Below are positions 5,454 through 54,011 of a stretch of 64,000 nt of DNA, piece after piece. The number at the start of each line of letters is the position of its first letter. Positions within the stretch are counted from its first letter, which is position 1. This stretch comes from Bacteroidota bacterium (GTDB lineage: Bacteria > Bacteroidota > Bacteroidia > Chitinophagales > Saprospiraceae): the NCBI GenBank assembly GCA_016124585.1, contig WGNL01000004.1:372001-436000 (forward strand). The letters run 5' to 3'. A program made the position numbers and the translations under genes. The notes beneath the pieces were generated by a model. That model searched no databases. It had not been told where the DNA came from and worked only from the letters and a program-made list of their open reading frames with translations.

Positions 5454-8400
5454 ATGAGTGTAACCTTGCAAGAAGCAATCAAAGACCGTATTCTCATATT
5501 AGATGGTGCGATGGGCACCATGATTCAGCGGTACAAGCTCAATGAGGGAGATTACCGAGGCGAGCGATTCGCCAATTGGCACCTGGACGTGAAGGGCAAC
5601 AACGATATGCTCAACATTACTAAGCCAGATGTAATCGAAGCTATCCATCGGGAGTATTTGGAGGCTGGTGCCGACATTATTGAAACGAACACTTTCAGCT
5701 CTACGGCAATTGCGATGGCCGATTACGATATGCAGGAATTTGCCTATGAGCTGAGTTTGGAAGGTGCCAAAATTGCACGTCGAGCAGCCGATGCTTTCAC
5801 TGCTCAGAATCCTGAAAAACCTCGATTTGTTGCTGGTGCAATTGGCCCGTTAAACAAATTGCTTTCCATGTCTCCAAATGTGAACGACCCAGGCTATCGT
5901 GCCGTCACTTTTGACGAGTGCATGAATGCCTACTACGACAATGCTCGTGGTCTGATGGATGGCGGTGTTGACCTACTTTTGATTGAAACCATAACTGATA
6001 CCCTAAATACAAAATCAGCGCTTTTTGCAATTGATAAATTGTTTGAAGAAAGGGGGGGGAAGCTACCTATCATGATTTCTGGCACAATTACCGATGCCAG
6101 CGGCCGAACGCTTTCTGGCCAAACTGTTGAGGCTTTTTGGATTTCGGTGAAACATGCCAAGCCTTTTTGCATTGGCTTGAACTGCGCCCTCGGCGCCAAG
6201 GAAATGCGGCCACATTTGGAGGATTTGGCAACAATTGCTGACTGTTATGTGCACGCCTACCCAAATGCAGGCCTGCCAAACGAAATGGGCGAATACGACC
6301 AAACGCCCCATGAAATGTGCCACTTCATCGAGGATTTTGTAGAAAGCAATTTTGTAAATATTGTGGGAGGATGTTGCGGTACTACGCCTGACCACATCCG
6401 GCACATGGCCGAGCATGTCAGCAACATGAAACCCCGACAAATTGCACCCAAACCGCATTTCACCATGTATGCGGGCATGGAGCCGCTCATCGTTCGGGAA
6501 AACATGAATTTCATTAATGTTGGTGAGCGCACGAACGTCACTGGCAGTCGCAAGTTTGCGAAGCTGATAAAGGAAGGCAACTACTCCGAGGCGCTTTCCG
6601 TTGCGCAGCAACAAGTGGAAGGTGGCGCTCAAATCATCGACGTGAACATGGACGAGGGCCTCCTCGATAGTGAAAAGGCAATGGTCACTTTCCTCAACCT
6701 CGTCATGGCTGAACCTGATATTGCGAAGCTGCCCATCATGATTGACAGCTCCAAATTCAGCGTTATTGAAGCTGGTTTGAAATGCGTACAGGGCAAATGC
6801 GTTGTGAATTCCATTTCTATGAAAGAAGGAGAGGCGGAGTTCATTCGACAAGCAAAATTGGTAAGACGCTATGGTGCTGCCGCAGTTGTGATGGCTTTCG
6901 ATGAACAAGGCCAAGCCGACACGATTGAAAGGAAAGTGGAAATTTGTGCAAGGGCTTACCAGATTCTCACGGAACAAGTTGGCTTCCCTCCAGAGGACAT
7001 TATTTTCGACCCAAACATTTTTGCGGTTGCAACGGGCATTGAAGAACACAATGAATACGCAAAGTATTATATCGAAGCTTGCCGACAAATCAAACAACGC
7101 TGTCCAGGAGTTAAAATCAGCGGCGGCGTGAGCAACCTTTCCTTTAGTTTCCGTGGAAATGACCGAGTTCGAGAGGCGATGCATTCTGCCTTTTTGTATC
7201 ACGCGATCCAAGCTGGGATGGACATGGGTATTGTGAATGCAGGCATGATGGAGATTTACGAAGAAATACCTAAAGACCTTTTGGTTTTGGTGGAAGATGT
7301 CATTTTCAATCGCCGACCTGATGCCACGGAACGACTAACCGATTTTGCCGAAAAAATAAAAGGGGAAAGTGGCGGCATGCAAATCCAAAAAGATTTGGAA
7401 TGGCGAAATGCCTCTGTTGAAAAAAGGCTGGAACATGCACTGGTAAAAGGGATAACAGATTTTATCGAAATAGATACGGAGGAAGCTAGGCAGAAATTTC
7501 CGCTGCCATTGTATGTCATTGAAGGCCCGCTCATGGATGGAATGAATGTAGTGGGTGACCTTTTTGGAGCAGGCAAAATGTTCCTGCCCCAAGTGGTCAA
7601 ATCAGCCAGGGTTATGAAAAAAGCCGTGGCTTACCTTACTCCATTTATCGAAGCAGAGAAAATGCGCTCTGGTGATACAAGTGCCAAAGGAAAAATCCTT
7701 TTAGCGACGGTGAAAGGCGATGTTCATGATATTGGAAAAAACATTGTCGGTGTCGTCCTTGGCTGTAATAATTATGACATCGTTGACCTAGGAGTAATGG
7801 TGCCCGCTGATAAGATTTTGGAAAACGCAATTGCAGAAAACGTTGATATGATTGGCTTAAGTGGCCTAATTACCCCCTCATTAGATGAAATGGTACATGT
7901 GGCAAAAGAAATGCAGCGACGTGGTTTTAACATGCCACTCCTGATTGGTGGAGCAACCACGTCAAAAACTCATACAGCTGTGAAAATTGAGCCACAATAT
8001 ACAAATGGTCCAGTTGTACACGTGCTTGATGCATCGCGTAGCGTAGCTGTGGCCTCTACACTGGCCTCATCGGATGAAAATGCGCGATCAAATTTTGTGA
8101 TTGATACCAAGAAGGAATACGCCACGATCAGGGAGCAACGTTTGAACAGGGCATCCTCAAAGAAATACCTAAGCATTAATGAAGCCAGGTCAAATCGACA
8201 TAAAATTAATTGGTCTGGATACGAGGTACCTAAACCTAATTTCTTGGGTGTAAAGGTCTTTGAAGATTACAGCATCGAGGAATTGAGCAATTATATAGAC
8301 TGGACTCCTTTTTTTGCAAGTTGGGAACTCCGAGGAAAATACCCTGCTATTTTGATGGATGAGACTGTCGGTGAGCTTTCCCGACAACTTTTCAATGACG

Positions 8401-47406: not shown

Positions 47407-49815
47407 ATGAAGTTTGGTCAACAAAAGAAAAAGCTAATCGCATTTTTCAAGAAACACCGAATCAAGCTTTTGATTGCATTCACTGGGCTATTGCTTGCCT
47501 ATTGGTTTTGTTTGCCCAGTCCTCTTTTCAACGATCCAACCTGTATGGTTTTGGAAGCACGGGATGGCAGCTTACTGGGGGCTCGAATTTCAGCTGATGG
47601 CCAATGGCGCTTTCCACACATGGATACCATCCCCGCTAAGTTTCAAAAAGCAATTATTGAATTTGAAGATAGACGCTTTTTCTCACATCCAGGTTTTGAC
47701 CCATTGGCGTTTGTCAGGGCCATTCGCCAAAACTTAAAAAACGGCAGTGTGGTGAGTGGGGGTAGCACATTGTCGATGCAAGTAATCCGAATGGCACGGA
47801 AGGGAAAGTCAAGGACAATTTTTGAAAAAGTCATTGAGGTTATTTTAGCCACACGTCTCGAAATAAAGTATTCAAAACGTGAAATCATGGCTTTTTACGC
47901 CTCCAATGCTCCTTTTGGTGGGAACGTAGTTGGCTTGGATGCCGCAGCTTGGAGGTATTACGGCAAAAAGCCAGAAAATTTGTCTTGGGGGGAAGCTGCC
48001 ACTTTGGCAGTATTACCTAATAGCCCAGGCCTCATACATCCGGGCAGAAATCGAAACGCACTTTTTGAAAAAAGAAATCGTCTTTTGACACGGCTGTTTG
48101 AGTCAAAAATGATTGATGAAACGACATATCAGTTGGCAATTGAGGAGGTTTTGCCAGACAAACCTCACCCGCTTCCTCAACTAGCTCCACATTTATTGAA
48201 CCGCGCTTTCAGTGAAAATTTTAGAAAAGCTGGCAACCAGTTTACGAAGATTAAATCAACCATTGATCCCGCGCTACAACTCCGTCTAAATGAATTGGCC
48301 ATTCGGAAAAGTAATAACCTAAAAGGTAATGAGATTCATAATCTAGCAATTTTGGTTCTTGAAGTTGAGACTGGAAATGTGCTGGCCTATATTGGCAACG
48401 CACCTAACACTGGCCCTGAAAACGGCGAAGATGTGGATATTATCAAGGCACCTCGAAGCACTGGAAGTATCCTGAAGCCTTTTCTGTATTCAATGTTGCT
48501 GAATGAAGGCAAAATCTTGCCTTCCAGTTTGATTTCTGACATTCCAACGCAAATAAGCGGTTACAAACCTGAAAATTACTTAGAAACTTACGATGGTGTA
48601 GTTCCAGCAGATAAGGCCCTATCACGATCCTTAAATGTTCCATTTATTAAAATGTTGCAAGATTACTCGGTCGAAAAATTTCATTTCAATCTAAAGAAAC
48701 TAGGAATTACTACCCTAAATAAACCTGCTAAACATTATGGCTTAACATTGATACTTGGCGGCGCTGAGGCATCACTTTGGGATTTAACAAGCGCATACAG
48801 TGGAATGGCCAGAACCCTTGGTCATTTTTACCAAAACAATGGTATGTACCGTACTGATGAATTCAGGCCACCCAACTACTTGGAATACTCAAAAAAGACA
48901 TTTGACTTAAAATTTCTTAAACAAGCTCCCATGTTGTCAGCCGATGCAATTTGGTTCAGTTTTGAGGCAATGGAAGAAGTACAGCGCCCAACCACTCAAG
49001 GTGAGTGGGAACGTTTTGAGTCTAGTCGGAGGATTGCTTGGAAGACGGGAACAAGCTTTGGCTTCCGGGATGCTTGGGCCATTGGAATTTCACCAAAATA
49101 TGTAGTGGGTATATGGGCTGGTAATGCCGATGGTGAGGGCAGGCCAGGTTTGGTTGGGGTTTATGCCGCTGCACCGATTCTTTTTGACGTCTTCAACTTA
49201 TTGCCGCCATCCCGTTGGTTTGATGCACCTTATGACGCTATGAAAAAGCTTCAAGTTTGTAAACAAAGTGGTTATCCTGCCTTGGAGTATTGTGAAAAAG
49301 ATACAATCTACGTCAATGAAACGGGCTTAAATACACTACCCTGCCCTTTCCACCAAATTGTGCATCTTGATAAAACTAGGCAGTGGCAGGTCAATTCAAG
49401 TTGCGAAACTCCTTCCTCAATGTTGAATGCATCTTGGTTTATTTTGCCTCCTGTGGAGGAATATTACTTCAAAATGAGAAATCCAAGTTATTCACCCTTG
49501 CCACCATTCCGAAGAGATTGTGATTTGGAAGACGCCAAGTCTTCAGCTTTAATGCAGATGATTTACCCTAGAAAAGGTGCTAAAATTTATGTCCCAACGG
49601 ATTTGGATGGCAAATTAAGCAGGACAGTTTTCAAAATGGCGCATCGTAATCCTGAAACGCTAGTCTATTGGCATTTAGATAACGAATACATTGGGCAAAC
49701 GAAAACTTTCCATGAATTAGAATTGAATCCAACTTCAGGTAAACACAAACTTACTTTGGTAGACGAAAAAGGAAATAGGCTGGAACTTGAGTTTGAGGTG
49801 ATTGCTAAAAATTAG
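47407..49815 (+). CDS. pbpC: Penicillin-binding protein 1C (bifunctional peptidoglycan synthase)
   Basis: An 802-residue inner-membrane class A PBP. One N-terminal membrane helix (IKLLIAFTGLLLAYWFCL) precedes the transglycosylase (about 60-245, KFQKAIIEFEDRRFFSHPGFDPLAFVRAIRQN with the catalytic Glu, GGSTLSMQVIRMARK). The transpeptidase (about 300-590) has the active-site Ser in STGSILKPF, a SLN motif (RSLNVPFIK) and KTGTSFGFRDAWAIG. The C-terminal BiPBP_C beta domain (about 700-802) is typical for PBP1C. Cotranscribed with pfkA. An alpha-2-macroglobulin gene, often its partner, is not present here; the sRNA region follows. Confidence 0.95.
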   Translation: MKFGQQKKKLIAFFKKHRIKLLIAFTGLLLAYWFCLPSPLFNDPTCMVLEARDGSLLGARISADGQWRFPHMDTIPAKFQKAIIEFEDRRFFSHPGFDPLAFVRAIRQNLKNGSVVSGGSTLSMQVIRMARKGKSRTIFEKVIEVILATRLEIKYSKREIMAFYASNAPFGGNVVGLDAAAWRYYGKKPENLSWGEAATLAVLPNSPGLIHPGRNRNALFEKRNRLLTRLFESKMIDETTYQLAIEEVLPDKPHPLPQLAPHLLNRAFSENFRKAGNQFTKIKSTIDPALQLRLNELAIRKSNNLKGNEIHNLAILVLEVETGNVLAYIGNAPNTGPENGEDVDIIKAPRSTGSILKPFLYSMLLNEGKILPSSLISDIPTQISGYKPENYLETYDGVVPADKALSRSLNVPFIKMLQDYSVEKFHFNLKKLGITTLNKPAKHYGLTLILGGAEASLWDLTSAYSGMARTLGHFYQNNGMYRTDEFRPPNYLEYSKKTFDLKFLKQAPMLSADAIWFSFEAMEEVQRPTTQGEWERFESSRRIAWKTGTSFGFRDAWAIGISPKYVVGIWAGNADGEGRPGLVGVYAAAPILFDVFNLLPPSRWFDAPYDAMKKLQVCKQSGYPALEYCEKDTIYVNETGLNTLPCPFHQIVHLDKTRQWQVNSSCETPSSMLNASWFILPPVEEYYFKMRNPSYSPLPPFRRDCDLEDAKSSALMQMIYPRKGAKIYVPTDLDGKLSRTVFKMAHRNPETLVYWHLDNEYIGQTKTFHELELNPTSGKHKLTLVDEKGNRLELEFEVIAKN

Positions 49816-49817
49816 GC

Positions 49818-49890
49818 AAAAAAAAACTCCTACATCAAGGGAGGCTTAAGGCTGATGTAGGAGCACTAAACATACTATGAGAAAACTACA
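49818..49890 (-). ncRNA. Putative small RNA, copy 1
   Basis: Predicted RNA of about 70 nt on the minus strand. Its -7 element is CATCTTTG (49896-49903, one mismatch). The 5' end carries the box AGTTTTCTCATAGTATG (49871-49887) shared with copies 2 and 3. The 3' half is an 11-bp perfect hairpin (49827-49837 with 49853-49863) with a 15-nt loop (GCCUUAAGCCUCCCU), ending in nine U. Stem pairs differ from the other copies but stay paired. Two exact LytTR-like operator sites lie upstream. Antisense short frames (MRKL start on the plus strand) are not conserved beyond four residues. Nothing here is confirmed by expression data. Confidence 0.55.
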
Positions 49891-49895
49891 CAGTG

Positions 49896-49903
49896 CAAAG
49901 ATG
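49896..49903 (-). promoter_or_regulatory. -7 element CATCTTTG for small RNA copy 1
   Basis: One mismatch (C for T) from TAnnTTTG on the minus strand, at the position equivalent to the exact elements of copies 2 and 3. No -33 TTG, consistent with an activator-dependent promoter. Confidence 0.4.
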
Positions 49904-49937
49904 CAGTCGTTACATTCGAAATGAAAGCGCCAATTAC

Positions 49938-49986
49938 GGAACGGTCGGTTTTTTCAGGGAACGGTCGGTTTGGTTTAGGAAATGGT
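49938..49986 (-). promoter_or_regulatory. LytTR-like operator array upstream of small RNA copy 1
   Basis: GGAACGGTCGG occurs at 49938 and 49958 (minus strand CCGACCGTTCC), a 20-bp period, with a degenerate third site GGAAATGGT at 49978-49986. ACCGTT matches the first six positions of the LytTR/AlgR-type consensus [TA][AC][CA]GTTN[AG][TG]. The proximal site ends 34 bp from the -7 element, exactly as in copy 2. Confidence 0.55.
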
Positions 49987-50091
49987 AAATAGTAAAATAA
50001 AATTGAGTAGTTTTTGGTCTTCACAAACTTCAAAAGCGAGTATTAGGTAACTCATTTCCAGTAAGGAAAACATTTATTTATTTTTAACTTT

Positions 50092-50240
50092 TTATCTTTC
50101 TGGCACAGAATTGGAAAAGTATTTTAAAGAATCTTCAACCGCATTACCGAATAGTCAATCCAATAATATTCGGCACTTCCATTAACTTCACACAGCTCGA
50201 TAAAGTGGGCAATCTTTTCAACGATGTTGAATTTTTGAAA
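50092..50240 (-). pseudogene. Frameshifted gene remnant
   Basis: Reading the minus strand from 50240 gives a protein-like stretch FNIVEKIAHFIELCEVNGSA then EYYWIDYSV; after a 1-nt frame change near position 50150 it continues AVEDSLKYFSNSVPER and stops at 50092-50094. No ATG opens it and its upstream frame has a stop at once. The composition is coding-like, so I read it as a decayed gene end. I cannot name the family. Confidence 0.35.
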
Positions 50241-50271
50241 TTAACCTAAGATTACTTAGAGGTAAGTCTTA

Positions 50272-50339
50272 AAATAAAATTCCTACACCCCAGAAGGGAA
50301 AAGAGGTGTAGGAGAATTAAACATACTATGAGAAAACTT
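50272..50339 (-). ncRNA. Putative small RNA, copy 2
   Basis: Predicted RNA of about 68 nt on the minus strand, from an exact -7 element TACCTTTG (50345-50352). It begins with the shared box AGTTTTCTCATAGTATG (50322-50338) and ends in a hairpin: 50281-50289 with 50305-50313, plus a U-G closing pair at the loop, then UUUUAUUUU. The loop contains UUCCCUU, sharing UCCCU with the other copies. Compared with copy 1 a stem U-A pair is replaced by C-G. Three operator sites lie upstream at the same spacing as copy 1. A 13-codon frame begins inside at AUGUUU, see findings. Confidence 0.6.
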
Positions 50340-50344
50340 AAATT

Positions 50345-50352
50345 CAAAGGTA
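50345..50352 (-). promoter_or_regulatory. -7 element TACCTTTG for small RNA copy 2
   Basis: An exact -7 match on the minus strand, six bp before the conserved 5' box. There is no -33 TTG; the operator array takes its place. Confidence 0.55.
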
Positions 50353-50386
50353 CATTTTGTGGTTTTGGAAAAAAAGCTACATTTAC

Positions 50387-50435
50387 GCACTGGTCGATTT
50401 CATGAGGGAACGGTAGTAGATTTTGAGGGAACGGT
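50387..50435 (-). promoter_or_regulatory. LytTR-like operator array upstream of small RNA copy 2
   Basis: Three phased sites: degenerate GCACTGGTCG (50387-50396), GGAACGGT (50407-50414) and GGAACGGT (50428-50435), spaced 20 and 21 bp. The proximal site is 34 bp from the -7 element, as in copy 1. On the minus strand the sites read ACCGTTCC. Confidence 0.55.
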
Positions 50436-50476
50436 CGTTTTTCAACAATAAACGGGAAAAATATTCGATTTTAATC

Positions 50477-50484
50477 TATCTTTG
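50477..50484 (+). promoter_or_regulatory. Plus-strand -7 element TATCTTTG without an obvious gene
   Basis: An exact TAnnTTTG match followed by C, on the plus strand. It would transcribe the decayed fourth unit and copy 3 in antisense direction. No -33 TTG is visible, so it could be chance. Confidence 0.25.
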
Positions 50485-50506
50485 CGACTAATAAGTTAGG
50501 AATGAA

Positions 50507-50550
50507 TTAAGGCTGACGAAGCACTAAATAAAATTGAGAATCTACACACA
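50507..50550. repeat. Decayed fourth copy of the small RNA unit
   Basis: TTAAGGCTGA at 50507-50516 and AGCACTAAA at 50520-50528 match copy 1 (49846-49855 and 49862-49870), and TCTACACA after TTGAGAA matches its CTACACA. The hairpin arms and the T-tract are lost, so it should no longer terminate. Confidence 0.5.
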
Positions 50551-50566
50551 AAAGAACCGGCAAGGC

Positions 50567-50635
50567 AAAAAAAATTCCCGCACCTCAGGAGGGACATAAG
50601 GTGCAGGAAGATTAAACAAACATACTATGAGAAAA
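50567..50635 (-). ncRNA. Putative small RNA, copy 3
   Basis: Predicted RNA of about 69 nt on the minus strand from an exact -7 element TATATTTG (50641-50648). It has the shared box AGTTTTCTCATAGTATG (50621-50637), a 4-nt insertion after it, and an 11-bp hairpin (50575-50585 with 50599-50609) with one U-G wobble that pairs only in the minus-strand RNA. The loop is UAUGUCCCUCCUG and eight U follow. Stem positions 6, 9 and 11 differ from copy 1 with both partners changed. No operator array is recognisable upstream; only GGAA remains at 50683, the expected place, so it may be constitutive or decaying. Confidence 0.5.
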
Positions 50636-50640
50636 CTGGG

Positions 50641-50648
50641 CAAATATA
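50641..50648 (-). promoter_or_regulatory. -7 element TATATTTG for small RNA copy 3
   Basis: An exact -7 match on the minus strand, three bp before the conserved 5' box and 54 bp downstream of the kinase stop codon. Read-through from the kinase gene would also enter it. Confidence 0.45.
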
Positions 50649-50702
50649 TCCTTTATTTTTTTAATATTAAAGGATTGAACCCGGAATTCTATTGAATTTT
50701 CC

Positions 50703-52616
50703 TTATTTCATCTGTATTTCCATTATTGGGATTAGGATTTCGACTCTAGTCCCAAGAGCCTTGCCGGTTTCTTCATTAACTAAATCAAAGATTTCGACTG
50801 CATTTTGCTCCATGTTTTGATTCCTGAGAAGAATTTGGAGCCGTTCTTGGGTAATACGCGTACCCATTGATTTGTGATCCTTAAAATTTGGATTTTTGAG
50901 TTGCAATTCCCTTGCCTTCTTGCGTCCAATCCCATCATCTTCTACAATACAAAGTATTGTGTTTTCATCAAATAATTTAAAATCGATTTTTATGTTGCCT
51001 TTACGTTTCGATCGAATGCCATGTTCTATCGCATTTTCAACATAAGGCTGAATAATCATAGTTGGTACGCCGTAAATATCTTCTTCAATATCTTCGTCAA
51101 TGAAAAGTTCATATTTTAATTGATCTTCAAATCTCAAATTCATATTGATATCGAGGTAATTCCTTAGAAATTCAATTTCTTTTTCTAGCGAAATAACCTC
51201 CAATTCAGAATATTCAAGGCTCTGTCGCATTAAGTGAGCGAATTGAGCTAGATATTTTGCAGCTTGAGAATTGTCATTAGAAGTAATGTAGTTTTGAACT
51301 GAATTAAGAGCATTAAAAACAAAATGCGGGTTCATTTGAGCACGAAGTGCTTTTAGTTGCAAGCCTGCCGCTTGAAGTTTAAACATTTCTGCTTCTTTCT
51401 CTTTTCTTTCAGCAGCATATCTGATTTCAATTTCTTTAATTTGATTGTCTCTTTCTTCGAACATGAAGCGTTCAACCGCTTGGTTATAGAGTACTTGATA
51501 ATCGTAGGCGTTTTTGTAATCTAATTCTTTTGAATAAAGGTCAGCGATGTCTTTTAAAATACCTGTTGCTTGTCGATACTCCTGGCCTTTTTTTGCAAAT
51601 TCTAAAGCTTTGAAATAATGCTTTAGTGCTTTCTTGGCTTTTTGCTCTTCAAAAATCTTACCTCGCCACCATTCAATATTTGCTAGATTTTTTTCTTTTC
51701 TGTCTTTGAAAAGGGGGTAAGCTGTTGTGAATAGTTCCAAAGCCTCATTGTATTGTCGTTTATTCAAATAACAGTAACCAAGGTTTGCATATGCAATTGC
51801 CCTAGTTTGTTGATTTAGGTCATCAACAACTTTGATTGCTTTTTTAAAATAAAGGCTTGCATTCTCAAAATCCTGCATTGCCATGTATCCATTGCCTACA
51901 TTTAAGTAATGCCACGACAGTCTTGAGCGCATGCCTTTTTTTTCACAAAGTTCAACAACATTTAGATAGGCTTGAACGCTTCTATCAGGTTCATTCAGAA
52001 GGCCATAAATTGTACCTAGGCCGCTTTGTATCAATGTAAAAAAATGGTAGTCCTTTAAGTCAGCAACCGATGAGATATTTTCAATTTCAAGTTCACAATC
52101 TAAAAAAGCCTTAAGTGCTTTCGAATAATCTGAAAACTTTAAATGGAAAAAACCTTCCCTGCAAATGAGTCTAAGCTTAAGCCTGTTATCAGGAAATGTC
52201 TCCAAATATTTTGCAGCCTGATTTAGATAAAATCTAGCTCTGTCAGGCTGGTCAAGGTTTTGTAAGGTGCCAGCATAATCAATATATGTTTCAGCAAGTT
52301 GATTTACATCTCCTCTTTCACCTAGGATTTCGAGAGCAAGGCGAAAATGTATCTCAGATAGATTGAAGTTGTAAAGTTGGTTCTCAACTAGAGCCATGTT
52401 GAGATTGTAATTCAATGCAAAATCCGGTTGGTCATAATCTTGAAGGATTTGCAATATTTCCGATAAATATTTTTGGGCTTTTGAAATATCTGTAAATACC
52501 AACTGGGAAGCAAGTCTGTCCAAAGTGGTAAGCCTTTTTAGGCGTTCATCTATGAGGTGTAATGTGGATTCCAATTTCACGATATCCTCGTTGGCGTCAG
52601 GATAGGTCTGAATCAT
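50703..52616 (-). CDS. Cytoplasmic TPR sensor histidine kinase (LytS type)
   Basis: A 637-residue protein with no signal peptide and no membrane helix. Residues about 20-360 are tandem TPRs (for example LSWHYLNVGNGYMAMQDFENASLYFKKAIKVV and IAYANLGYCYLNKRQYNEALELFTTAYPLF). A coiled coil follows (about 375-425, EIRYAAERKEKEAEMFKLQA). The LytS-type kinase core has the phospho-acceptor His431 in QMNPHFVFNALNSVQNYI, the N-box PYVENAIEHGI and the G-box VEDDGIGRKKA. It should phosphorylate the LytTR regulator encoded nearby. TPR arrays of this sort bind peptides in other systems, so a soluble peptide signal is possible. The start at 52616 is chosen because the promoter at 52672 lies inside the longer frame. 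Confidence 0.88.
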   Translation of the reverse strand: MIQTYPDANEDIVKLESTLHLIDERLKRLTTLDRLASQLVFTDISKAQKYLSEILQILQDYDQPDFALNYNLNMALVENQLYNFNLSEIHFRLALEILGERGDVNQLAETYIDYAGTLQNLDQPDRARFYLNQAAKYLETFPDNRLKLRLICREGFFHLKFSDYSKALKAFLDCELEIENISSVADLKDYHFFTLIQSGLGTIYGLLNEPDRSVQAYLNVVELCEKKGMRSRLSWHYLNVGNGYMAMQDFENASLYFKKAIKVVDDLNQQTRAIAYANLGYCYLNKRQYNEALELFTTAYPLFKDRKEKNLANIEWWRGKIFEEQKAKKALKHYFKALEFAKKGQEYRQATGILKDIADLYSKELDYKNAYDYQVLYNQAVERFMFEERDNQIKEIEIRYAAERKEKEAEMFKLQAAGLQLKALRAQMNPHFVFNALNSVQNYITSNDNSQAAKYLAQFAHLMRQSLEYSELEVISLEKEIEFLRNYLDINMNLRFEDQLKYELFIDEDIEEDIYGVPTMIIQPYVENAIEHGIRSKRKGNIKIDFKLFDENTILCIVEDDGIGRKKARELQLKNPNFKDHKSMGTRITQERLQILLRNQNMEQNAVEIFDLVNEETGKALGTRVEILIPIMEIQMK

Positions 52617-52671
52617 GTTTATAGTGTTTCCAGTGAGTGCCTCAGAAAAAAGTAGATTTGTTTTTAATTTA

Positions 52672-52703
52672 CAAATATAAAAAAAGAGGCAGGGCATCTG
52701 CAA
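52672..52703 (-). promoter_or_regulatory. Promoter for the histidine kinase
   Basis: On the minus strand an exact -7 TATATTTG (52672-52679) with TTG (52701-52703) 21 bp upstream. The -7 overlaps the last T of the terminator for the small peptide gene. Leader about 50 nt. Confidence 0.55.
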
Positions 52704-52748: not shown

Positions 52749-52958
52749 TTATTGTGGCAAATCACCTAAGCAGGGACTTGGTCCAAAAAAGCCTGCAAAA
52801 AAACCCTTCTTCTTTTCAGTTACTTTTTCATTGCCCCCAATAAACTCATTCATCTCAACTTTCTTAATTTGATTGAGATCGTCTAATTCGAACAAGTTCT
52901 TCTTTTTTGTAGTCTTTCCCATAGCATCTAAGTTTTGAGTGAAAAATCCTAAGTTCAT
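52749..52958 (-). CDS. Small peptide precursor with double-glycine leader
   Basis: A 69-residue protein. Residues 1-42 look like a double-glycine leader: NLFELDDLNQIKKVEMNEFIGG, with the hydrophobic spacing (L..L...I....M..F.GG) of bacteriocin and Bacteroidota natural-product precursors (compare the GG-Bacteroidales group, TIGR04149). Cleavage after Gly42 would release a 27-residue peptide: a lysine-rich start (NEKVTEKKK), then GFFAGFFGPSPCLGDLPQ with one Cys. No C39-type peptidase-transporter or modifying enzyme is in the window. The gene has its own full promoter and terminator and sits between the kinase and response-regulator genes. An alternative start is Met13. It could also be an unprocessed regulatory protein. 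Confidence 0.6.
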   Translation of the reverse strand: MNLGFFTQNLDAMGKTTKKKNLFELDDLNQIKKVEMNEFIGGNEKVTEKKKGFFAGFFGPSPCLGDLPQ

Positions 52959-53166: not shown

Positions 53167-53967
53167 TTAAATTGCTTCTTCCAATCTTCTCATCTGCTCC
53201 ATGAATGCTGGCCGTCTACGTCTAGAGACTTCAATTTTTTTCCCATCCTCCATTACTAAATACCCCCCATCTCCTTTAATGAATTTCCTCATGTAGTTCA
53301 AGTTGATGACATGTCTCTTGTGAACTCTGTAGAAATTCAACATTTGCAACATGTCTTCATAGGCCTTGATTGTTTTTGAGGCAGTAATTCGGTCGCCATT
53401 TATCAAGTAAATATGAGTATAATTGTCCTCAGCCTCAAATCTGACAATGTCCTTGATATTTACAAAATAAATCCCATCTATTGCTGCGATGCTCATCTTT
53501 TCGAATGAGTTCGGGTTGCTTAAAGATTTGTTGAAAAGGTCAAGCCTTTCTTCAATTTTTTCTGCATGATGAACCCTGATTCTACTTACAGCCTGAGTGA
53601 GTTCATCTGGGTTAATTGGTTTCATAATATAACCAATCGAACTGTACTGGCAAGCACGGATGGCGTGTTCATTGAATGCTGTAATAAATATCACCTCAAA
53701 ATCTACAGGGTGCATCTCATCCAAAAACTGGAAAATCAAACCATCGGGTAGGTTAATATCTAAAAAAGCTACATCGGGTCTAAAATCAGTTTCGTCAAAC
53801 AAGTCAAGCGCTTCTTCAATATTTAAAGCGTCAGCAATGACTTCTACCTCAGGGCAATGGCTTGCCAAAAGGTTTTTGAGATTATTCAAGCTTTTGATTT
53901 CGTCTTCGACGATTAACGCTTTGATCACGGGAATCGGTTTGTTAATTTCTAAAACATTTATGGGCAT
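53167..53967 (-). CDS. LytTR family response regulator
   Basis: A 266-residue transcription factor. The receiver domain (about 15-130) has the acidic pair (EDE, 21-23), the phospho-acceptor Asp70 in VAFLDINLPDG, the Thr in FITAFNEHAIRAC and the Lys in IGYIMKPINP. The C-terminal LytTR domain (about 160-262) has IRFEAEDNYTHIYL-type strands (here VRFEAEDNYTHIYLINGDRITASKTIKAYEDML) and FYRVHKRHVINLNYMRKFIKGDGGYLVMEDGKKIEVSRRRR. LytTR proteins bind direct repeats about 21 bp apart. It is expected to be the partner of the TPR kinase. Start 53967 follows the promoter at 54004-54011. Confidence 0.93.
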   Translation of the reverse strand: MPINVLEINKPIPVIKALIVEDEIKSLNNLKNLLASHCPEVEVIADALNIEEALDLFDETDFRPDVAFLDINLPDGLIFQFLDEMHPVDFEVIFITAFNEHAIRACQYSSIGYIMKPINPDELTQAVSRIRVHHAEKIEERLDLFNKSLSNPNSFEKMSIAAIDGIYFVNIKDIVRFEAEDNYTHIYLINGDRITASKTIKAYEDMLQMLNFYRVHKRHVINLNYMRKFIKGDGGYLVMEDGKKIEVSRRRRPAFMEQMRRLEEAI

Positions 53968-54003
53968 ACTAGACCTTTCAATGCATAAATACTCAATCTG
54001 ATG

Positions 54004-54011
54004 CAAAAATA
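54004..54011 (-). promoter_or_regulatory. -7 promoter element TATTTTTG for the LytTR regulator
   Basis: An exact -7 match (TATTTTTGC) 37 bp upstream of the start at 53967; it overlaps the longer frame beginning at 54006. Confidence 0.5.

Follow-up and report, generated by a model that had tools for sequence, protein, structure and literature searches.

What is encoded in the gap between a histidine kinase gene and a penicillin-binding-protein gene in this member of the Bacteroidota, and is it controlled by the LytTR response regulator gene nearby? Three similar units lie in this gap, all on the minus strand. The preliminary description read them as a covarying family of small RNA (sRNA) genes and took their C-rich loops to be the functional centre. 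We analysed the window, meaning the whole stretch of 64,000 nucleotides, alongside the rest of the source genome and related genomes. The features discussed below are listed in Table 1.

Table 1. Positions of the features of the locus within the window.
Feature	Positions	Strand	Details
Penicillin-binding-protein gene	47407-49815	plus	
Unit 1 (type C), sRNA gene	49818-49887	minus	box 49871-49887; hairpin 49827-49863; T-run 49818-49826; model match E 1.5e-9
-7-like element, unit 1	49896-49903	minus	CATCTTTG, degenerate
Three tandem repeats upstream of unit 1	49933-49986	minus	13-mers 49974-49986, 49953-49965 and 49933-49945; 20-21 nt apart
Unit 2 (type B), sRNA gene	50274-50338	minus	box 50322-50338; hairpin about 50281-50314; T-rich tail; model match E 6.6e-10
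-7 element, unit 2	50345-50352	minus	TACCTTTG, exact TAnnTTTG
Four tandem repeats upstream of unit 2	50382-50456	minus	13-mers 50444-50456, 50423-50435, 50402-50414 and 50382-50394
Unit 3 (type A), sRNA gene	50566-50637	minus	box 50621-50637; hairpin about 50577-50608; T-run; model match E 8.8e-13
-7 element, unit 3	50641-50648	minus	TATATTTG, exact TAnnTTTG
A+T-rich inverted repeat	50641-50680		overlaps the unit-3 promoter
TPR histidine kinase gene	50703-52703	minus	PF06580 6e-22; TPR_12 1.5e-15; start probably nearer 52616 (MIQTYPD)
69-aa ORF, leader ending GG, putative secreted peptide	52749-52958	minus	position conserved between regulator and kinase
LytTR response regulator gene	53167-54006	minus	PF04397 1.7e-18; PF00072 1.1e-14; start codon uncertain

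Each unit opens with the 17-nt box AGTTTTCTCATAGTATG, identical at all three places just as had been claimed, and continues into one stem and a T-run. The 3' terminator hairpins of the preliminary description are borne out by folding of the minus strand, which gives z-scores of -3.54, -3.96 and -4.74 for units 1, 2 and 3; the shuffled sequences that fold as well number 0, 0 and 1 of 200, respectively. The minus strand has the lower fold energy throughout (-17.6 compared with -16.9 for the plus strand in unit 1, -18.5 with -14.0 in unit 2 and -20.5 with -13.3 in unit 3), with unit 1 as an exception in that its z-score is better on the plus strand (-4.09). Inspection by eye confirms that the stems keep pairing while both partners change and that all three loops contain UCCCU. 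The common -7 element stood only in part. Measured against the consensus TAnnTTTG, which appears in an excerpt from PMC9723704, it is exact in units 2 and 3 and degenerate in unit 1. Around the unit-3 promoter, the letters of the inverted repeat vary among relatives while its arms seem, by eye, still to be complementary.

Coding readings of the units were rejected. The box ends in ATG, yet the frames downstream differ (12 aa in unit 1 and MFV-stop in unit 3, by eye), and the reverse complement of the box leads into short, dissimilar ORFs in four copies outside the units (L008, L053, L070 and L076). Known RNA families were also rejected: an Rfam search of the window gave no match at the gathering score among 4227 families and nine sub-threshold matches, the best at 27.2 and 24.0 bits. 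The match of 24.0 bits, to RF01719 (Pseudomon-1/ErsA) on unit 1, compares with a gathering score of 50 and is taken as chance.

The covariance-model search proposed in the preliminary description places the units in a family of wider range. In the 6.6-Mb source genome, the strong matches of the model (R1) are four units with E values of 9e-13 to 1e-8, and the next match has an E value of 0.16. The fourth unit lies 3' of hemD on contig 23; the genome therefore has short sibling units of conserved structure, three in the window and one elsewhere. Of 396 genomes from the order, 54 have an R1 match, every one of them in the window's genus or family, and among 61 genomes of that family (one per genus) a match is present in 38 at E<=0.01, 29 of these at E<1e-5. 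The family is Saprospiraceae, judging by the named genome records that contain the 19-mer. Among the 80 stretches listed of 118, these records mostly have Saprospiraceae or Bacteroidetes titles and include Phaeodactylibacter luteus, P. xiamenensis and Lewinella; other titles among the same 80 are Chitinophagales (at least two), Thalassovita (at least one) and Bacteroidales (at least one).

Pairing is kept in these relatives. The alignment holds 37 of 53 distinct units, hand-picked so as to omit near-duplicates, one long-loop copy and several type-D rows. Changes on both sides are found in 11 of the 12 stem pairs, 86.8% of stem cells are paired as against 35-49% when partners are slid, and the covariation score reaches 0.420, where shuffling gives 0.210 on average. 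The weakest covariation measure, further pair types, is equalled in 11 of 500 shuffles. Chance is excluded because of the gap in E value behind the four strong genome matches and because of the difference in stem pairing. The units are thus a real RNA family, absent from Rfam and of a known kind, and the claim of a covarying family beside a locus with a PF04397 regulator is upheld; the covariation is strong enough for an RNA-family entry. The letters of the box occur in no paper of the open-licence literature searched, and a loose query of that literature for Saprospiraceae and small RNA, which says little, returned no match with the family name among those listed.

Units for wider comparison were collected in two sets. 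A search at up to three mismatches gave 73 box-like places, of which 60 were retained (at most one mismatch, plus one two-mismatch copy in L046) and assigned by their letters to types A to D. L053, L070, L076 and L077 were dropped from the 60; the last, with its hairpin and T-run, may be a real unit. A further 71 places were selected for a hairpin and T-run, so that these are built into the set; 69 have at most one mismatch and were left untyped, and 68 of those have enough upstream sequence for analysis.

The 16-nt core of the box is exact in 123 of the 129 collected units, a constancy that is partly selected because the box also served as a search key. The C-rich loop is common without being universal: CCC is present in the loops of 92 of 117 non-D units compared with 3 of 12 type-D units, and several units besides type D do not have it. 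The earlier view of the loop as functional centre is less well supported. A strict TAnnTTTG lies within 20 nt in 29 of 60 units (only 2 of 14 in type C and 3 of 12 in type D), and in these 29 its distance from the box ranges from 4 to 14 nt, so the box is not a promoter element of fixed spacing. It is likely part of the RNA itself. Being complementary to a start-codon context, the box is likelier than the loop to be the main pairing element, with the loop as a possible second contact. Two divergent units were also seen. In L074, at about 5970-6050, a type-D unit has its box repeated in inverted form beyond the hairpin, giving one long stem of box and hairpin, and in L138, at 6411 on the minus strand, a unit has the diverged box AAATTCTCATAGTATG, yet a strong repeat pair (score 39) lies upstream.

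Four observations go beyond the preliminary description: the fourth unit, the peptide ORF, the complementarity of the box to a start-codon context, and the tandem repeats that precede units 1 and 2. In form, the latter are direct repeats that precede a promoter at intervals of about two helical turns, and the best copies at units 1 and 2 read ACCGTTCCCT. Spacing at unit 2 is again 20-21 nt, with the first and last repeats degenerate. When the window was scanned, the repeats scored 38.5 and 34.1 at unit 1 and 44.0, 21.7 and 20.7 at unit 2, and 0 of 200 shuffles were as good in either case, both units being in the training set; repeat pairs scoring above 12 occur in the window only at these two units. 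All 25 type-B and type-C units with enough upstream sequence beat their own 200 shuffles, although these units trained the matrix. Outside the training set, L041, L044 and both L045 units each gave 0 of 200 shuffles as good. Repeats are present in 42 of 68 units of other genera, where they are equalled by at most 2 of 200 own shuffles (26 fall below this level), and occur only at -73 to -80 and -95 to -101. Scores above 10 in other genera number 17 with a spacing of 20-22 nt versus 1, 0, 1 and 2 with four wrong spacings. The type-A units of the genus show a weak signal in just 2 of 13 cases (1 and 5 of 200 shuffles as good), and none of the 12 type-D units shows one.

The repeats resemble, in core and place, two kinds of known site: the AlgR sites, which read CCGTTCGTC and CCGTTTGTC in an excerpt from PMC4064291, and the promoter-proximal repeats of AgrA, which an excerpt from PMC4227749 centres near -60. 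Judged from sequence, the evidence for LytTR-type control is good, and the adjacent LytTR regulator probably activates units 1 and 2. The source genome has six exact matches to the repeat pattern, compared with none for the pattern reversed; two are at units and four elsewhere. One off-unit match lies inside an ORF that is glycosyltransferase-like by eye and looks like chance. Three strong off-unit pairs (contigs 4, 13 and 44; L087, L088 and L090) precede leaders of about 330 nt, and L088 and L090 resemble copies of one element. Across 25 genomes, the repeat pattern has matches in 15, with three control matches.

The surroundings of the units are conserved in part. Within the genus, the A-B-C cluster lies between the kinase and penicillin-binding-protein genes wherever contigs allow, and among 40 further loci a kinase match is present in 17, the other 23 having no match nearby and some of them being cut by contig ends. 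Of 29 loci, 28 have a small ORF with a leader ending in GG between the regulator and kinase genes (14 of 15 in the first set and all 14 further ones). The exception is L041, where the gap between the two genes is 18 nt; L042 stands outside this count, as its regulator and kinase were found only opposite to the called ORF strand. The core of the peptide ORF mostly ends in PQ. Its leader resembles in form that of TIGR04149, a family of rSAM-modified RiPP leaders, against which the window's ORF reaches 10.9 bits over residues 15-43, below the NCBIfam cut-off of 25, and its relative in L064 has no match. The kinase, counted from MIQ, has no strongly hydrophobic stretch, its best 19-residue hydropathy mean being 0.72. 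The 69-aa ORF could possibly encode a signal peptide, which would then be exported and sensed. An excerpt from PMC8895600 places Fus, Nis, Cia and Qse proteins in Bacteroidetes, and the text of that paper mentions neither sRNA nor double-glycine.

What the RNAs might act on is suggested by the complement of the box, which reads CAUACU-AUG-AGA-AAA-C, a start-codon context. At up to three mismatches in 19 letters, the source genome has 11 such places, namely the four units and seven others, and a backwards control has seven. The best start-codon match among the seven others belongs to an ArsR-type regulator gene (PF01022, 2.1e-9). Here the box complement falls exactly on the start codon, and the predicted duplex energy of -20.4 is reached by 0 of 200 shuffled boxes. 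Among 524 background genes, two pair equally well (at least one of them fetched for matching the box), so the match in the source genome alone is not rare.

The ArsR-type start region was compared in 55 of the 61 genomes, those with a full start aligned (G018, G019, G225, G276, G377 and G420 are out). The first test set 28 strong carriers of the RNAs against 26 other genomes and gave median pairing energies of -18.45 and -10.5, respectively. The second set 29 against 26, G240 having moved to the carriers because its weak match is a unit beside the kinase and regulator; pairing at or below -14 kcal/mol was found in 28 of the 29 carriers versus 3 of the 26 non-carriers. Carrier G021 is without the ArsR-type match. 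The coding sequence (MRKQ) dictates some of the pairing. Of 29 carriers, 13 have the non-coding AACAT directly 5' of the start, as do one of 26 non-carriers and 12 of 524 other genes. Because the poorly resolved tree shows only four changes of carrier status and the paired test can use two pairs, the correlation is not significant by phylogeny. Exact matches to ACATANNATGAGAAARC outside the units number seven in the 61 genomes. Two are the ArsR-type gene; the other five start ORFs of 444, 449, 366, 10 and 412 aa that by eye belong to no common family. The box complement GTTTTCTCATAGACTGTTT of several genus members was rejected, as it overlaps the end of an ORF and makes a poor start. Codons AAGAAGGG, able to pair with the type-B loop, occur in 13 of 29 carriers versus 1 of 26 non-carriers, an enrichment that G+C content may explain. 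We tentatively name the ArsR-type regulator mRNA as a target of the box, at somewhat less than an even chance.

A second, related RNA family was observed in tandem copies, each with an AATTGG-like lead, the box GTGTTCTCATAGTGTG, a hairpin with a CTGCCCC-like stem and a T-run. It is found in the source genome on contig 5 (at 238520, 238742 and about 238817) and contig 12 (at 44571; L422), and also in L408 (up to four tandem copies), L412 and L417. The core TTCTCATAGTRTG, which precedes the terminator hairpin, is common to this family and the units, and the flank is different. Eight genomes with weak R1 matches only have a version with the box GTGTTCTCATAGTGTGTTC, divergent from a DNA primase gene (L358-L361 and L363-L366); this neighbour was identified by Pfam in three of the eight and by eye in five.

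The best reading of the locus, to which we give about an even chance, is that LytTR-controlled sibling sRNAs act at start codons. The units would be transcribed as trans-acting sibling sRNAs of about 65-75 nt, each starting at or near the nearly invariant single-stranded box GUUUUCUCAUAGUAUG and ending in a terminator hairpin whose loop is often C-rich. The adjacent response regulator would activate units 1 and 2 by binding the tandem repeats about 50-100 nt upstream, and unit 3, which has no repeats in this genus, would be expressed by other means. In the proposed mode of action, the box would pair over start codons like CAUAnU-AUG-AGA-AAR-C and silence the mRNA, with that of the ArsR-type regulator as the leading candidate. 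Both kinase and regulator would probably react, directly or indirectly, to the peptide whose ORF lies between their genes.

The same siblings under the same control could use their parts differently, the box binding a protein such as an RNA chaperone or nuclease and the C-rich loops pairing with mRNA. This alternative arises mainly because the core TTCTCATAGTRTG recurs in the second family beside another flank, which suits a common protein site; the prevalence of CCC in non-D loops and the excess of AAGAAGGG codons in carriers also favour it. However, the C-rich loop is missing from type-D and several other units, the codon difference may track G+C content, and the box complement lies exactly on the start codon of the best candidate target. 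We consider a protein-bound box unlikely. The identity of the regulator can be questioned separately. If the repeats bound another LytTR-type regulator, the real sRNAs would have only history in common with the kinase-regulator pair. The repeats are kept in L044 and L045, where neither kinase nor regulator was found nearby, four exact sites of the source genome lie away from units, and, because no repeat pair above 12 occurs in the window outside the units, nothing suggests that the pair is autoregulated. Such a purely historical link is nevertheless quite unlikely in our judgement, as the units adjoin the pair in many genera while other genes vary.

We regard it as very improbable that the units are terminators or 3'-end elements with no action in trans, unit 3 ending the kinase mRNA and type D ending the hemD mRNA. 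The arrangement itself would allow it: unit 3 begins 66 nt past the kinase stop codon, and the type-D units lie 3' of hemD in 12 of 12 cases. But an invariant 16-nt box is more than a terminator needs, no same-strand gene precedes units 1 and 2, which have upstream repeats of their own, and the -7 elements of units 2 and 3 are exact. The favoured reading, of LytTR-controlled siblings acting at start codons, can also be extended to an agr-like peptide circuit in these Gram-negative Saprospiraceae. A double-glycine-leader peptide would then signal through a TPR kinase with no membrane stretch and the LytTR regulator to the sibling sRNAs, whose box would shut mRNAs, the ArsR-type one included, at their start codons, and the second RNA family with the same core would form a parallel branch. 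This extension is possible, though less likely than not.

Several known systems combine sRNAs with signalling in similar ways. The Qrr sRNAs of Vibrio are redundant, have one conserved pairing region in common, form the output of a signalling relay and include one copy beside a regulator gene; they are under sigma-54/LuxO control and depend on Hfq. Unlike Qrr, the units described here have LytTR-like repeats and no evidence of sigma-54. The AgrA-RNAIII system of Staphylococcus aureus has a peptide signal, and its RNAIII is a single long RNA. The present locus differs in its several short siblings and in a kinase that has TPR repeats and no membrane stretch that we could see. In likeness to it, AgrA is a LytTR regulator that binds direct repeats near -60 (excerpt from PMC4227749), and the RNAIII gene downstream of them carries UCCC motifs (excerpt from PMC4132741). 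The latter excerpt also describes LhrC1-5 of Listeria monocytogenes, LisRK-dependent RNAs that likewise unite several siblings, one two-component system and UCCC motifs. They belong to a different phylum and regulator class, the comparison is one of descriptions rather than sequences, and the box has no counterpart in the excerpt's description of LhrC1-5.

Overall, the locus brings together, for one RNA family of the Bacteroidota, the regulator, the common seed and a candidate target. Should the box work in the proposed way, its seed would be set against a start codon and the two codons after it, and sequence would then allow targets to be predicted. The peptide ORF linked to the locus points to signalling between cells in Saprospiraceae.
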